From the NCBI GenBank assembly GCA_018398995.1, contig CP073759.1:62001-126000 (forward strand): a stretch of DNA of 64,000 nucleotides, given 5' to 3'. Positions 16,515 to 21,094 of this stretch are shown one piece after another. This stretch comes from Methylophilaceae bacterium. GTDB lineage: Bacteria; Pseudomonadota; Gammaproteobacteria; Burkholderiales; Methylophilaceae. The notes under the pieces are model-generated. The model had not been told where the DNA came from, did not search any database, and saw only the letters and a program-made list of their open reading frames with translations. A program made the position numbers and the translations under genes. How positions within the stretch are numbered: position 1 is the first letter of the stretch; every line of letters begins with the position of its first letter.

Positions 16515-17914
16515 GTTTCCGCCCTACCATATTGATCATCAAACCGAATAATATCATCCTCACCGACATAGTCGCCGCATTGCACTTCAATGATTGCAAG
16601 AGGCGATTTGCCTTTGTTTTCTAGGCGATGGTGATGTGTTTTCGGAATATAAGTTGATTGATTTTCTTGTAAAGTTATAGTGTTGCCGTTATTGGTAATG
16701 GTTGCTTCTCCTGCTACGACTACCCAATGTTCAGAACGGTGGTTGTGCATTTGCATGGAAAGCTTTGCGCCTGGGTTCACAACGATGCGTTTGATTTTAA
16801 AGCTTGTCGACTCTTCAAGCACTGTATAGGTGCCCCAAGGGCGATGAACCGTTAGGTTTGTTTCTGCTAATTCTGCTTTGTGCTCTTTGACGCGTGCCAC
16901 CAGCGATTTAATTTCTTCTGTTCTGCTTCTGTCACAAACCAGTGTTGCATCGGCCGTTTGTATCACCACCACATTATCTAATCCTGCAGTGGCTAGTAAA
17001 TTAGATTGGCTCCAAAGCAGGCTATTGGTTGTGTCTTGTGCAAACACATCACCGTGCATGACATTGTTATTTTCATCTTTAGTTTGCTTTTGATAAATTG
17101 ATTCCCAACTGCCTAAATCACTCCAAGCCATATCAACGGGCACTACGGCGATTTTTTCTGCTTTTTCTGCTAAGCCATAATCCATGGATAGATTGGCAAA
17201 ATTAGCATAGGTTTGTGCAAAATTCTCTGTTGTCATGTTGCTTAATTGGCTGGCCATTTCTGGCTGATATTGGGTGAGCATTTTCATAAAAACACTGGCT
17301 TTAAATACAAACATGCCGCTATTCCATAAATAGCCTTTTTCCACATATTGTTTTGCAGTTTGTGCTTCTGGTTTTTCTACAAATTGCGCCACTTCAAAAA
17401 CAGGCATATTGCCATTTGCAATCTGTTTACTTGGTTGGATATAGCCGTAACCAGTTGCTGGAGCATCTGGTTTAATGCCCAATAGCACTAAATAATCTTG
17501 CTCAGCGATTGTTTCTGCTGTTTGCCATGCTTCGATAAACGCAATTTGATTATCAATAGCATGATCGGAAGCAAATACGCCAATAATGGCATCTTTGTCA
17601 CGTTGTTGGATTTGATTGACTGCCCAAGCAATGGCTGGCAAGGTGTTTCTAGCGCAAGGTTCGGCTAGCACATTAGCGACAGCGTCTGGTGCTACTTCAG
17701 CCAGTTGCCCTTTTACTTCAAACTTGTGATCTTCGTGGGTAACGGTATAGAGATGTTGGGCAGGCACATGCGCTAATAAACGCATTGCTGTTTGTTGTAA
17801 TAACGTTTCTTTGCCATTTAATGCTAGCAATTGTTTAGGTCGTAATGTGCGCGACAATGGCCATAAACGTGTGCCAGATCCACCACTTAGAATAAGCGCG
17901 TAATGCTTGCTCAT
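16511..17914 (-). CDS. manC: Mannose-1-phosphate guanylyltransferase / mannose-6-phosphate isomerase
   Basis: A 467-residue bifunctional enzyme of the ManC/CpsB/AlgA type. The N-terminal nucleotidyltransferase carries [14 protein letters not shown] (9-22) and FVEKP; the C-terminal cupin isomerase domain has [21 protein letters not shown] from about residue 370. It supplies GDP-mannose to Gmd. It is the first biosynthetic gene after the regulator, which it overlaps by 4 bp. No phosphomannomutase gene is seen in the window. Confidence 0.95.
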
Positions 17915-18258
17915 GAGTGATAAACCTCGGCATCTATTGTCTTTTTCGCTTCAGCCCTAAGTGCTTCAATCTCCGCTTCTAAAGAAGCGTATTCTTGCAA
18001 TTTGGCTTTTAGGAAGCGTTCGGTAATGGCAGATTTTTCTTTTACGCCACTTGGGGTCAATAGATACATATAGGCTAGTTTATTTTTGCTATTTTTAAAA
18101 TTGGACACTTTAAGTAAACCAACATCAATCAGCGCTTTTAAACAATAGTTCGCGCGACCCAAGCTAACACCTAATTCACACGCCAAATCGCGCTGACTAA
18201 TCTCAGGATTTTTTTCTAATGCTTTTAAAATTTTGTAGCGGTATTCGTCAGTTAGCAT
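17911..18258 (-). CDS. MarR-family EPS-associated transcriptional regulator
   Basis: A 115-residue winged-helix protein: HTH about residues 18-45 (ISQRDLACELGVSLGRANYCLKAL), wing to about 75, then a C-terminal alpha-helix or coiled coil rich in Glu, Ala and Lys (80-112). It matches the small MarR-type regulators found at the head of exopolysaccharide loci. Being the first gene of the operon it probably controls its own transcript and the whole cluster. The ligand and the operator are unknown. Confidence 0.85.
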   Translation of the reverse strand: MLTDEYRYKILKALEKNPEISQRDLACELGVSLGRANYCLKALIDVGLLKVSNFKNSKNKLAYMYLLTPSGVKEKSAITERFLKAKLQEYASLEAEIEALRAEAKKTIDAEVYHS

Positions 18259-18412: not shown

Positions 18413-18433
18413 GCACGGTGTTTGAAGCTGTCT

Positions 18434-18500
18434 GGATTGCTTCGTCATTACATTCCTCGCAATGACAGCACTCGTCACTGCGAGCGAAGCGTGGCAGTCC
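18434..18500. repeat. REP-like palindromic repeat, copy B (full length)
   Basis: Left arm GGATTGCTTCGTCATTACAT with CTCGCAATGAC, right arm GTCACTGCGAGCGAAGCGTG then GCAGTCC. The ends pair (GGA-TGC with GCA-TCC) and CTCGCAATGAC pairs with GTCACTGCGAG with one mismatch. Units of this wording (GGATTGCTTCG...CTCGCAATGAC) are familiar dispersed intergenic repeats in several proteobacterial genomes; the origin is not known to me. Confidence 0.8.
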
Positions 18501-18567: not shown

Positions 18568-18891
18568 CTAAGCGATACCAACAAATACTGCGAGCGCTCT
18601 GTTGACTGCGAGCATTGCTTCATCAGATAGGTGTCCGAACACTTGACCTACCTTGTCGCGAGGCACAGTTTGTATTTTATCTATCATAATCTCAGATAGT
18701 TTACTCAGTCCATTATTTGAATCGGGCTGAACCCCTATGCGAAATAAAGGCAAATCACGAAGTTCGCTTGTCACAGGCAGTATGGTGACGGAAGGATGCT
18801 CTTTAAATAGGTCGGATTGAATAATGATTGCTGGGCGTGGTTTACCGTATGCACCTGCTAGTACAATTGTGACTAAATCACCACGCCTCAT
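18568..18891 (-). CDS. mazF: MazF/PemK-family mRNA interferase toxin
   Basis: A 107-residue MazF/PemK toxin. RRGDLVTIVLAGAYGKPRPA is the family N-terminus with the catalytic arginine region, followed by ILPVTSE and a C-terminal DKIQTVPRDKVGQVFG. Family members cut single-stranded RNA at short motifs. The ATG at 18891 overlaps the antitoxin stop as ATGA, with GAAGG six bases before it; an in-frame TTG two codons earlier is less likely. Its cut site cannot be predicted. Confidence 0.9.
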   Translation of the reverse strand: MRRGDLVTIVLAGAYGKPRPAIIIQSDLFKEHPSVTILPVTSELRDLPLFRIGVQPDSNNGLSKLSEIMIDKIQTVPRDKVGQVFGHLSDEAMLAVNRALAVFVGIA

Positions 18892-19100
18892 TTCCAACCT
18901 TCAGTATCGGCAACTTCTTCCATCCAACCCAATAACTCAGCTTCCTTAAAGTCCCTTTGCAACGCAAGTGATTGTCGTTGGCATTCTTCTGCAAAGCCTT
19001 TTTGGCGCGTATCTGGAACCCAGATTTGTACAGGACGTAATCCAGATGCACGTAAAGTGGCACGATGTTTTTGTACGCGTGAAGCATTATTTGATTGCAT
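18888..19100 (-). CDS. mazE: MazE-family antitoxin (DUF3018 type)
   Basis: A 70-residue protein of the antitoxin MazE family formerly called DUF3018. SRVQKHRATLRASGLRPVQI is the conserved N-terminal half that contacts DNA, and the acidic tail (EAELLGWMEEVADTEGW) is the likely MazF-binding part. AGGAG lies 7 bases before the ATG. It overlaps mazF by 4 bp, and a palindromic operator with promoter lies directly upstream. Confidence 0.85.
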   Translation of the reverse strand: MQSNNASRVQKHRATLRASGLRPVQIWVPDTRQKGFAEECQRQSLALQRDFKEAELLGWMEEVADTEGWK

Positions 19101-19110
19101 TGTTATACTC

Positions 19111-19164
19111 CTAATTGTGTTACATGTAACAACTATACTCGGAAGTTACATGCAACACAATTAG
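19111..19164 (-). promoter_or_regulatory. mazEF operator: 20-bp inverted repeat enclosing the promoter
   Basis: Left arm 19111-19130 (CTAATTGTGTTACATGTAAC) and right arm 19145-19164 are inverted copies matching at 19 of 20 positions, with a 14-bp spacer; each arm also contains the near-palindrome GTTACATGTAAC. On the minus strand a -35-like TTGTGT (19155-19160) and a -10-like TATAGT (19132-19137) are 17 bp apart and fall inside it. Binding of MazE or MazEF here would block the promoter directly. Confidence 0.72.
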
Positions 19165-19241
19165 TTTCTATTTGGGTGTTATGTAGCATGCTGGATGGAT
19201 AGTTTATTTTGGCTGTTATAACGCTTAATTACTGAAAGACT

Positions 19242-19274
19242 GGATTGCTTCGTCATTACATTCCTCACAATGAC
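19242..19274. repeat. REP-like repeat, copy C (half unit)
   Basis: GGATTGCTTCGTCATTACAT followed by TCCTCACAATGAC, identical to the left arm of copy B but for one base. The right arm is missing. Lies in the gene-free stretch 19101-19413 together with the mazEF operator and the decayed S4 fragment. Confidence 0.75.
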
Positions 19275-19323
19275 CGTTGGGCTGAAATGCGCAATCACAG
19301 CAAAAAGTCTTTAAAGCGTTTCT

Positions 19324-19403
19324 TTAAATCCCGTCGTAGTTTTTAATGCCAGTAAACTGGACGATATTCCGTAATTGGCATTTGGTTGGGAACCTGCGCT
19401 TAA
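19324..19403 (-). pseudogene. Decayed duplicate of the 3' end of the S4-domain gene
   Basis: Read on the minus strand this encodes PTKCQLRNIVQFTGIKNYDG(I) and a stop, which aligns without gaps to the C-terminus PTKRQLREIAKFTGIKNYDG(L) of the intact S4 gene at 20684-21094. At DNA level 46 of 59 ungapped bases match, with 19 of 20 in the last block (19331-19350 against 20691-20710). No start codon or S4 domain remains. It begins directly after the DUF4143 gene ends. See the finding on the insertion scar. Confidence 0.8.
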
Positions 19404-19413
19404 CTCCGTAATA

Positions 19414-20547
19414 TTAAACCGCTAAAGCGTTTAGCCAATTGGCTGCATTTCGAACCTGCACTGTTTGTATATCGGCCTCATTACTGCACTCTTTTACTAA
19501 TTGAATCGCTTTTGCTAACGGCCACTGCGCGGAAAATCGATGAAGCGGTTTGTGCGAGCTAGTGGCATGAAGCTTGCATTCAATTAAATCGGTGATGCTG
19601 CCTGCTTGGCTTAATACAAAATCAACTTCTGCATCATCTTTCGTTCTAATGTAATGCAAATTGACTGTTTCTCCCGCTACATCTTGTTGCCATTGAACTT
19701 TTTTTAATAGATGGCAGGCAACCAAATTTTCAAATCGAATGCCCTCATCTCCTAATACTAATCCCGTGTCATAAAAGTAGACTTTGGGAGATTTCAATAT
19801 CGCTCTAGCGATATTGTGGTGCCACGGTCTGACAGAGAAAACAATAAAAAGTGACTCCAGTATTTCTAAATATCGAGCTAATGTTGTTGGTGAAACGCTA
19901 AGGTCTCGCGCTATAGAGGCAAGTGACAGTGGAGATCCAACGCGGGAGCGCAGCATCTCAGCAAAAAGGCGCATGGTGTTAATTTCTTGCACTCGTGAAA
20001 ACTCAAGCACATCCTCTCTAATCAGGTCGTTAAAATAACTGTAACGCCAACGGTCAGCCTCAGTATCATTATCTGCAAGTGCAGGTTCGGGAAACCCCCC
20101 TCTTTTCAATAGGTGGTTAAGCGCAAGTTGTGGTGAAACGCGTTGCACCTCCACCCACTCTCGTACTGATAAGGGATGCAATCTTAATCTAAAATATCGT
20201 CCAGCAAGAGAATCTCCTCCTTGCCTAAATGTCTCCATGCGCGCGCTTCCAGTGACGAGAATTTGTTGCTGAGCTGCACGACCATCAAATACGCCTTTTA
20301 ACCAAGTCTTCCAATCTTGCATTTTATGTATTTCATCAAAAATCAGCAGTGGTGAGCTCTGACGCCATTGTTGCGCATTGATGACTAGCCTGTGTGGTAG
20401 TACATCAAAATTCAGATACTGGCTATCAGGTAGCGCCTCCATTAGCTGCTGACTCAGCGTGGTCTTGCCGATCTGCCGAGGACCAGTCAGCACTACGAGT
20501 TTTTTCTGCAGATCTTGACGAATCTGTTCGTATAAATATCTTTTCAT
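19414..20547 (-). CDS. AAA+ ATPase with DUF4143 domain
   Basis: A 377-residue protein. The N-terminal AAA_14 ATPase has Walker A GPRQIGKTT (22-30) and Walker B LLIFDEIH (Asp71-Glu72); the rest is the DUF4143 domain, with a PD-(D/E)xK-like patch (DDAEVDFVLSQAGSITDLIECK) near residues 300-325. The function of the family is not established; members are often found with toxin-antitoxin genes or as lone accessory genes. No ribosome site precedes the ATG. It lies between an intact and a decayed copy of the S4 gene 3' end, so it was probably acquired. Confidence 0.85.
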   Translation of the reverse strand: MKRYLYEQIRQDLQKKLVVLTGPRQIGKTTLSQQLMEALPDSQYLNFDVLPHRLVINAQQWRQSSPLLIFDEIHKMQDWKTWLKGVFDGRAAQQQILVTGSARMETFRQGGDSLAGRYFRLRLHPLSVREWVEVQRVSPQLALNHLLKRGGFPEPALADNDTEADRWRYSYFNDLIREDVLEFSRVQEINTMRLFAEMLRSRVGSPLSLASIARDLSVSPTTLARYLEILESLFIVFSVRPWHHNIARAILKSPKVYFYDTGLVLGDEGIRFENLVACHLLKKVQWQQDVAGETVNLHYIRTKDDAEVDFVLSQAGSITDLIECKLHATSSHKPLHRFSAQWPLAKAIQLVKECSNEADIQTVQVRNAANWLNALAV

Positions 20548-20590
20548 GCGACTATTTTACACAATAATGGATAAAAGTCGCGACTATTTT
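20548..20590 (-). promoter_or_regulatory. Palindrome and direct repeats upstream of the DUF4143 gene
   Basis: The 11-bp direct repeat GCGACTATTTT occurs at 20548-20558, touching the start codon, and again at 20580-20590, 32 bp apart (about three helical turns). The second copy overlaps a perfect 10-bp palindrome AGTCGCGACT (20576-20585). A TATAAT box lies on the minus strand just upstream (cactATAATgc near 20592-20597). This looks like a self-regulated promoter region, but no -35 box is clear. Confidence 0.4.
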
Positions 20591-20683
20591 GCATTATAGT
20601 GCAATATGGTCGATAAATAGGTCTTTTTTGTGCTTTGTCTCTTTGCTTTTTCACTGATGGTAGTGACAGATTTTGACAAATTT

Positions 20684-21094
20684 TTATAGCCCATCGTAGT
20701 TTTTAATGCCTGTAAATTTGGCAATCTCACGCAGTTGTCGTTTGGTTGGACGCCCTGCTCCACGCTCTCGCTCGGCGTGTTCATTGCTGCGGGTGGTTTT
20801 GATATTGTCACGCTTGGCTTTGCTTTCTTTGGTTTCTTTGTACAAAAATGTAGCATCCGTCGCGCTGCGTCGCGTATTCGATAAGCCTGTTACTTCTATC
20901 ACCATTTCCATGTCTTTGGTGGTGATTTGTATTTGCATACCCAGTTGCACTTCTTTTGCGCTTTTAGCGCGGTCGCCATTGACGCGCACCTTACCACCAC
21001 TCACGGCATCGGCCGCCAGACTACGCGTTTTAAAAAAACGTGCTGCCCACAGCCATTTATCTAATCGACATTTTTCATCAAGGTTAGTTACCAT
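20684..21094 (-). CDS. S4-domain RNA-binding protein (Hsp15-like)
   Basis: A 136-residue protein with an N-terminal S4 domain (about 9-60: RLDKWLWAARFFKTRSLA ... GGKVRVNGDRA) and a basic, lysine- and arginine-rich tail, the layout of Hsp15 (HslR), which binds 50S subunits carrying stalled nascent chains. The C-terminal FTGIKNYDGL is duplicated in decayed form at 19324. A single gene here; flanked by a REP-like unit toward the Lon-like gene. Confidence 0.85.
   Translation of the reverse strand: MVTNLDEKCRLDKWLWAARFFKTRSLAADAVSGGKVRVNGDRAKSAKEVQLGMQIQITTKDMEMVIEVTGLSNTRRSATDATFLYKETKESKAKRDNIKTTRSNEHAERERGAGRPTKRQLREIAKFTGIKNYDGL

Follow-up and report, generated by a model that had tools for sequence, protein, structure and literature searches.

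Duplicated ends of an hsp15-like gene around a DUF4143 gene in a Methylophilaceae genome: an insertion scar possibly formed without an integrase

The analysis of the window (the whole 64-kb stretch of DNA under study) showed that a DUF4143 ATPase gene is enclosed by two copies of an hsp15-like S4 gene's 3' end, one intact and one decayed, and that this arrangement is an insertion scar. At about even confidence, we explain this locus by an integrase-free insertion through homologous recombination in the shared S4 tail, which left a partial duplication of the gene. Scars of some related bacteria around small defence or toxin–antitoxin (TA) genes suggest that such genes may enter chromosomes at the ends of other genes although they carry no integrase. 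This wider pattern, in which small defence/TA genes are enclosed by duplicated ends of conserved genes, is more interesting than the window case. Genomes and loci used for comparison are designated below by G and L numbers, respectively.

Results

Structure of the hsp15-like locus

The gene order on the minus strand of the window is the hsp15-like S4 gene, the DUF4143 ATPase gene, the S4 tail remnant, mazEF and the MarR_EPS gene (Table 1). The repeat search revealed an ungapped direct repeat of 67 nt, identical at 52 positions (78%), whose two copies are spaced 1360 bp apart and enclose the DUF4143 gene alone. The preliminary description had already placed the ATPase between an intact and a decayed S4 3' end, which agrees with this repeat; the 46 of 59 identical bases that it reported are a shorter cut of the same 67 nt.

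The remnant is in frame up to its stop codon. It reads PTKCQLRNIVQFTGIKNYDG, followed by one further residue and the stop, while its counterpart in the S4 gene is PTKRQLREIAKFTGIKNYDG, and 16 of the 20 residues are identical. In the protein search, the remnant was the sole other S4 match at E ≤ 0.001 in the 2.03-Mb genome (residues 116–136, 76%, E = 8e-4). Chance similarity as the source of the repeat is practically negligible, since the match reached E = 2e-9 (blastn within a 5.5-kb piece), is in frame, ends at the stop and adjoins the very gene that it resembles.

The Pfam families assigned at the locus were S4, AAA_14 with DUF4143, PemK/MazF, MazE-like and HTH_24. The S4 protein is Hsp15-like, with a score of 95 bits for PRK10348 that lies under the 148-bit cut-off. 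The Pfam scan of the window found no integrase among the three proteins separating S4 from the MarR_EPS gene, as had been stated before, and ARAGORN found no tRNA within the 64 kb. The mazEF genes are bordered by 35-bp repeats that are 97% identical and belong to a family with more similar copies elsewhere in the genome. An inverted repeat with 20-nt arms, 95% complementary, is situated just upstream of mazE (19111–19164) and is perhaps the mazE operator.

Table 1. Features of the hsp15-like locus, with positions counted from the first letter of the window.
Feature	Position	Strand	Evidence
Intact hsp15-like S4 gene, 136 aa	20684..21094	-	ORF list, Pfam, PRK10348
S4 gene 3' end, intact direct-repeat copy	20683..20749	-	Repeat search
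Operator-like palindrome AGTCGCGACT (20576–20585) and half site GCGACT (20548–20553), just upstream of the DUF4143 start	20548..20585	.	Motif counts in homologues
DUF4143/AAA_14 ATPase gene, 377 aa, candidate defence family PDC-S01	19414..20547	-	ORF list, Pfam, PADLOC models, structure model
Decayed S4 3'-end copy, 67 nt, 52 identical	19323..19389	-	Repeat, protein and blastn searches
35-bp dispersed repeat, one side of mazEF	19240..19274	.	Repeat search
MazE-like antitoxin gene	18888..19100	-	ORF list, Pfam
PemK/MazF-type toxin gene	18568..18897	-	ORF list, Pfam
35-bp dispersed repeat, other side of mazEF, 97% identical direct copy	18432..18466	.	Repeat search
MarR_EPS regulator gene, directly 3' of S4 in several relatives	17911..18258	-	ORF list, profile match

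The DUF4143 protein and its operator-like site

The cargo protein matched the Pfam families AAA_14 (91.7 bits, cut-off 27) and then DUF4143 (108.8 bits, cut-off 28.1). Like the PDC-S01 system of PADLOC-DB, it is recognised by the models of that family, seven of which match it (best 2.4e-61). The family match makes the gene a candidate phage-defence gene, while the operator and the gene-tail context are what was observed here.

The structure model (mean pLDDT 89) showed an AAA+ domain close to Hda/RuvB/ORC-type ATPases, followed by helices with a weak HTH_11 match. The C-terminal unit of the model is composed of helix 268–291, strands 295–301, 307–314 and 317–325, helix 333–341 and strand 346–351. 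In 39 sequences, E273, D309 and E323 are invariant and K325 is nearly so. On the basis of the model and these residues, we infer that the C-terminal part of DUF4143 may be a PD-(D/E)XK-like nuclease. The fold searches performed with the whole protein listed AAA+ proteins (RuvB, Hda, ORC/RFC, archaeal ATPases) and no nuclease, and the PDB sequence search gave two weak matches only.

Of 82 homologous rows, in which two genomes were counted twice, 75 had at least two AGTCGC/GCGACT half sites in the 110 nt preceding the gene, whereas none of 74 control windows did. The full palindrome was found upstream of DUF4143 in 68 of the same 82 rows. These counts show that the DUF4143 gene travels with its own operator-like site and suggest that it may be autoregulated.

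The empty site and the interval downstream of S4 in relatives

The search covered 187 genomes of the family, of which 122 had an S4 match and 120 were examined downstream (the fragments G188 and G101 were left out). The sequence downstream of these 120 loci extended from 52 bp to 26 kb, and absences there are lower bounds. In G003, which belongs to the same genus as the window, 82 nt separate the S4 stop from the MarR_EPS start, with neither DUF4143 nor mazEF between them. Because of this empty site, the window locus is an insertion scar, as the preliminary description had proposed. It had also foreseen that strains without the ATPase would have the S4 end joined to the mazEF side; an empty site does exist, in G003 and more widely, the MarR_EPS match beginning 73–260 nt past the S4 stop in 16 of the 120 family loci, but it joins the MarR_EPS gene and not mazEF. 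The mazEF pair of the window is itself extra relative to the empty site.

In many other loci the interval downstream of S4 is filled, mostly, as judged by eye, with polysaccharide genes and TA pairs, and the S4–MarR_EPS interval is a variable spot bordering a polysaccharide cluster. No DUF4143 or PF02452 (mazF) matches were obtained from the remaining five genomes of this genus, not all of which are complete. The S4 match is missing from three of these five and present in the two others; one genome of the genus, G001, is 99% complete and has no hsp15-like S4 match at all. A second full S4 copy was found in none of the 122 genomes with S4. Neither a relative carrying both tails without the ATPase nor a full second S4 paralogue from which the remnant might derive was encountered, the genus contributing only two other genomes with S4 to this comparison.

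A different arrangement was seen in G149 (L166), where a 76-nt piece of S4 lies upstream of S4 and a 76-nt piece of MarR_EPS directly after it, the full MarR_EPS gene being 3.9 kb off, beyond TA-type genes.

Copies of the S4 tail around other cargo

Downstream copies of the S4 tail were found in three of the 120 family loci, i.e., in the window, G168 and G169, and the latter two have other cargo next to duplicated S4 ends, for which the preliminary description had suggested a search. In G168, the full S4 gene is followed by two nucleotidyltransferases and a weakly HEPN-like gene, a partial S4 gene and MarR_EPS; the partial gene runs from about codon 27 to the stop (338 bp) and is 93% identical. 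In G169 (L236, Methylotenera), nucleotidyltransferase and HEPN-like genes similar to those of G168 occur about 10 kb past the full S4 gene; they are followed by a 15-residue S4 tail, and DUF4143 separates this from a further tail of ~229 bp. The inner end of the S4 repeat differs between the cases, with lengths of 45, 67, ~229 and 338 nt. Near the S4 tails of G169 there are also second pieces of a GDP-fucose-synthase-like gene and of another gene's end (L067 13420–13528 and 16405–16500), and the stretch is therefore pieced together from the ends of several genes.

Between the window and G169, the DUF4143 proteins share 64% identity, and they belong to separate clades (support 100/98 and 100/99), that of the window grouping with Rhodoferax and other Burkholderiales at up to 73% identity. 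Because the two proteins fall into different supported clades, DUF4143 is judged from sequence to have reached the S4 tail at least twice. Among the 80 loci searched, an S4-tail copy beside another DUF4143 gene was found only in L236, which has the same upstream sequence as G169 and is the locus already described; L243 has a weak internal S4-domain match.

The comparison of the two G168 copies with the nearest relative, G166, showed that the intact S4 gene is 98% identical in the head and 84% in the tail, whereas the remnant is 96% identical in the head and 94% in the tail. Compared with each other, the two copies share 97% identity over the head but 85% over the tail. By these values, the working S4 gene of G168 carries a foreign-looking tail.

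Duplicated tails of thiC and rep/uvrD

The genes called thiC and rep/uvrD here, like the other target genes, are what we take them to be from their sequences. A second thiC tail was detected in six of the 49 matched genomes of one genus (52 genomes), namely G138, G166, G142, G149, G148 and G146, and G160 has a thiC tail only. The genes between thiC and the next tail are a DUF4143 gene in G138 (where the tail is 54 bp long), a cytosine methyltransferase, a restriction-type ATPase protein and a PIN/Phd pair in G166, Fic with MazE-like genes in G149 and a monooxygenase in G142. In the last genome more thiC fragments occur, placed between an antiporter gene and a PDC-S06 ATPase further on. In G146, the thiC tail is succeeded by genes for a methyltransferase and a type II restriction enzyme; neither this genome, with the tail at a contig start and the full gene on another contig, nor G148, whose contigs end at the thiC tail copies, gave a cargo order. 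The inner ends of the thiC remnants vary from query position 289 to 403 of 448.

Likewise, a second rep/uvrD tail was found in three of 20 matched genomes of another genus. The scanned cargo of G084 consists of two nucleotidyltransferase/HepT-type pairs; that of G087 and G097 resembles it by eye and has MntA-profile matches, and the three cases may share one ancestor. In all seven thiC and rep/uvrD loci with both copies on one stretch there are ORFs between the copies, and no integrase family was found among the scanned cargo proteins, small and unscanned ORFs being outside the scan.

As a control, the 3' part of a LonB-like gene gave a second copy in none of 46 matched genomes out of 52. This control is imperfect: the query stops 34 nt short of the gene stop, the gene is less conserved than thiC and short copies could be missed; one split match in G139 and a 37-bp match in G162 (E 6e-4) were left uncounted.

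In G166, the intact thiC copy is nearest to G136/G132 and the remnant to G167/G158 (137/144, 134/144), and the two tails therefore differ in origin. This gene was considered as a second clear case of a foreign tail and then dropped, as the last 85 nt of the intact tail, with 68/85 identities to G168, still have 77/85 to G136 and 78/85 to G132.

Direct repeats in the flanks of DUF4143 genes

Direct repeats on both sides, with 600-bp flanks, were found for 10 of 90 DUF4143 genes and for 3 of 261 other ORFs (Fisher p = 1.2e-4, for loci that are phylogenetically non-independent). A first count of 10/92 vs 5/273 had included the controls L274 and L281, which are antisense ORFs over DUF4143 genes and were removed together with those genes; identical proteins and short-flank loci are also excluded from the 600-bp count. 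With 900-bp flanks, 13 of 86 DUF4143, 2 of 25 MazF and 4 of 24 MntA-profile loci were positive vs 6 of 231 other ORFs, one of the MazF positives being the window mazEF itself with its dispersed repeats. DUF4143 as the specific maker of the scars was rejected, since the MazF and MntA-profile rates with these flanks are similar to its own. A looser test with 2-kb flanks gave a weaker contrast (14/73 vs 14/156 control intervals). G169, with a 29-nt match only, is below the strict repeat threshold.

Roughly one half of the positive DUF4143 loci have dispersed repeats or repeats that were not assigned. Dispersed or palindromic-looking flanking repeats occur at L051, L224, L226, L268 and L281, and those of L219, L274, L278, L291 and L345 were not assigned to any class. 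The gene-end cases besides the window are the 3' end of tRNA-Met (L045), thiC (L048), rep/uvrD (L346), a glycosyltransferase-like gene end in three copies (L237), and the ygiQ-like (L047) and HD/GAF-type (L273) gene-end repeats, both of which end ~40–100 nt before the stop. The length of the gene-end repeats is 43–541 bp. Head or 5' pieces of genes are duplicated at L234, L322, L331 and in G149.

In L045 (G140), the tRNA-Met gene is on one side of a distant DUF4143 gene and a 60-bp copy of the tRNA-Met 3' end, 96.7% identical, on the other. In L234, from a Nitrospirae MAG, DUF4143 is enclosed by a complete sugar-transferase-like gene and a 541-bp copy of that gene's head. The two L234 copies are 80% identical over the 541 bp, near-identical at the start and more diverged later, a gradient assessed by eye.

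Discussion

Under the explanation favoured here, a fragment with the candidate defence gene (DUF4143/PDC-S01, with its own operator) would have entered beside the 3' end of the hsp15-like gene, and homologous recombination in the shared gene tail would have left two tails, of which the working gene has one and the other follows the cargo. In its simplest form, this would be a single RecA-dependent crossover between the chromosome and the circularised fragment; alternatively, the exchange might have had one homologous and one illegitimate end. Either form would produce partial gene copies of variable length, and the tail–cargo–tail block, once formed, could spread to relatives via ordinary crossovers in the flanking genes. 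According to the available text of PMC3240628, when E. coli received one-end-homologous DNA, PCR showed that part of the matching locus was duplicated in 56 of 60 clones; the duplications measured 109–950 bp in the 14 sequenced clones and were ascribed to a RecA-dependent single crossover of circular molecules. This homology-facilitated illegitimate recombination, or single-crossover integration, is RecA-dependent, as is proposed for our cases, and like them it gives mostly partial locus duplications. It is unlike them in being, as that text presents it, a laboratory event with a plasmid, whereas here there are natural scars, with the same gene ends reused and with defence/TA genes enclosed.

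The empty S4 site in G003, the different cargo at the S4 tails of G168 and G169, and the recurrence at thiC and rep/uvrD all argue for homologous integration. The variable repeat length, the duplicated gene heads and the foreign-looking tail of G168 fit such integration, by which a gene is partly duplicated, better than they fit an att site at a fixed position. In favour there are also the ComEC and DprA families, although 10 and 11 of 14 control genomes, respectively, have them as well. A native-to-foreign switch inside the flanking gene is clear in G168 and ambiguous in G166, while the two window tails are equidistant from the congener G005 (46/54 each, and 42/54 to each other). Because of this equal distance, we infer the homologous route for the window from its relatives, and likewise which of its tails would be native. 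The comparison with G003 and G005 as a direct way to name the native tail did not decide between the two: besides the equal match to G005, their downstream similarity to G003 is within the shuffle range (460 of 500 shuffles were as high for the remnant and 124 of 500 for the intact copy). No foreign segment was seen in the body of the window S4 gene, which is 84% identical to that of G005 (LonB 83%).

Some observations stand against this reading. A single crossover with a foreign circle would not lead one to expect the native-like head of the G168 remnant (96% to G166), and the intact thiC tail of G166 is not clearly foreign. The 60-bp tRNA-Met 3' end around the distant DUF4143 gene of G140 resembles an integrase att site, and recurrence at the same gene ends, like the predominance of 3' ends, is also expected of site-specific systems.

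Genomic islands enter the 3' ends of genes or tRNAs by means of tyrosine recombinases, and their cargo lies between an intact and a truncated 3' end of the target. The window has the same arrangement and is unlike such islands in that no integrase was found, the repeat length is variable and some repeats are of the head type. A cassette, or a larger island since reduced to DUF4143, might have been inserted at an att site in the S4 3' end by an integrase since lost or supplied in trans, the tail brought in by the cassette restoring the gene. This is possible but doubtful, and we keep it because 3' ends recur and the tRNA-Met case, textbook in form, looks att-like. Most of the clear cases are gene 3' ends, most of these repeats end at the stop or within ~16 nt of it, and the distribution of tails in G168, foreign-looking on the working gene and native on the remnant, is what site-specific insertion predicts. 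However, the scanned cargo proteins, which do not comprise all small ORFs, include no integrase family, duplication also affects the heads or 5' pieces of genes, and the head of the G168 remnant is not element-like. The inner ends of the thiC and S4 remnants also vary, though decay may shorten old remnants and few independent events are known. The term "site-specific" in the preliminary description is accordingly not retained: no recombinase was found, the inner S4 boundary is not fixed, heads are duplicated elsewhere and the G168 pattern fits homologous recombination better. Its second suggestion, that homologous tails recombined, agrees better with the wider data and may also apply to the window.

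A long target duplication, made by a transposition-like or end-joining process and possibly aided by the nuclease-like DUF4143 protein, is unlikely. It would suit the window, G138 and G140, where gene-end repeats enclose no gene but DUF4143, as well as the putative PD-(D/E)XK-type order of elements with conserved E, D and ExK in the C-terminal part. Nevertheless, nucleotidyltransferase/HEPN, R-M and Fic cargo without DUF4143 leave the same scars, and the copies should start identical, whereas those of G168 differ far more in the tail than in the head. It is very improbable that a tandem duplicate, or a captured second S4 allele, decayed to its tail while DUF4143 landed between the copies independently. 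G168 does keep codons 27–129 of a second S4 copy, but two full copies occur in none of the genomes with S4, and the thiC and rep/uvrD copies enclose ORFs wherever both are on one stretch.

Returning to homologous integration, a close natural parallel is given by the hotspots of PMC5635113. In the available text of that source, many hotspots are without mobile-element genes, recombination takes place at flanking core genes and tRNA integration sites are mentioned. These hotspots are alike in that variable cargo lies between conserved neighbours, often without an integrase and with more recombination in the flanking genes; they are unlike in that double crossovers at the flanking core genes are proposed and, in the same text, partial ends of flanking genes beyond the cargo are not mentioned. 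The transformation-induced merodiploids of PMC3784515, so far as the available text describes them, share the origin of host-sequence duplications from partly homologous foreign DNA. They differ in being mostly ~100–900 kb long between IS repeats, with one of 3.3 kb without repeats, and are not short gene tails. Narrow searches of partly available literature found no prior description of small defence/TA genes between duplicated ends of conserved genes.

It is a tentative idea, and one that we consider rather less than probable, that defence cassettes flanked by gene tails form a class of mobile unit in their own right, composed of a small defence/TA gene without its own recombinase and of a conserved-gene 3' end serving as homology arm. 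If this were true, any relative with the conserved gene would be a landing site, and the gene would be left working after the insertion. Repeated use would then give serial arrays of cargo, tail, cargo and tail, such as those of S4 in G169, thiC in G142 and the glycosyltransferase-like gene in L237.

Where small defence/TA genes have entered chromosomes without an integrase, the event can be read from the scar that it leaves, a direct repeat of the adjoining gene's end. Second copies of core-gene tails can serve as a search handle for cargo that is not known beforehand, as with thiC, and the foreign one of two tails can be recognised when near relatives are compared. The recurring ends of hsp15, thiC and rep/uvrD make the mechanism testable.
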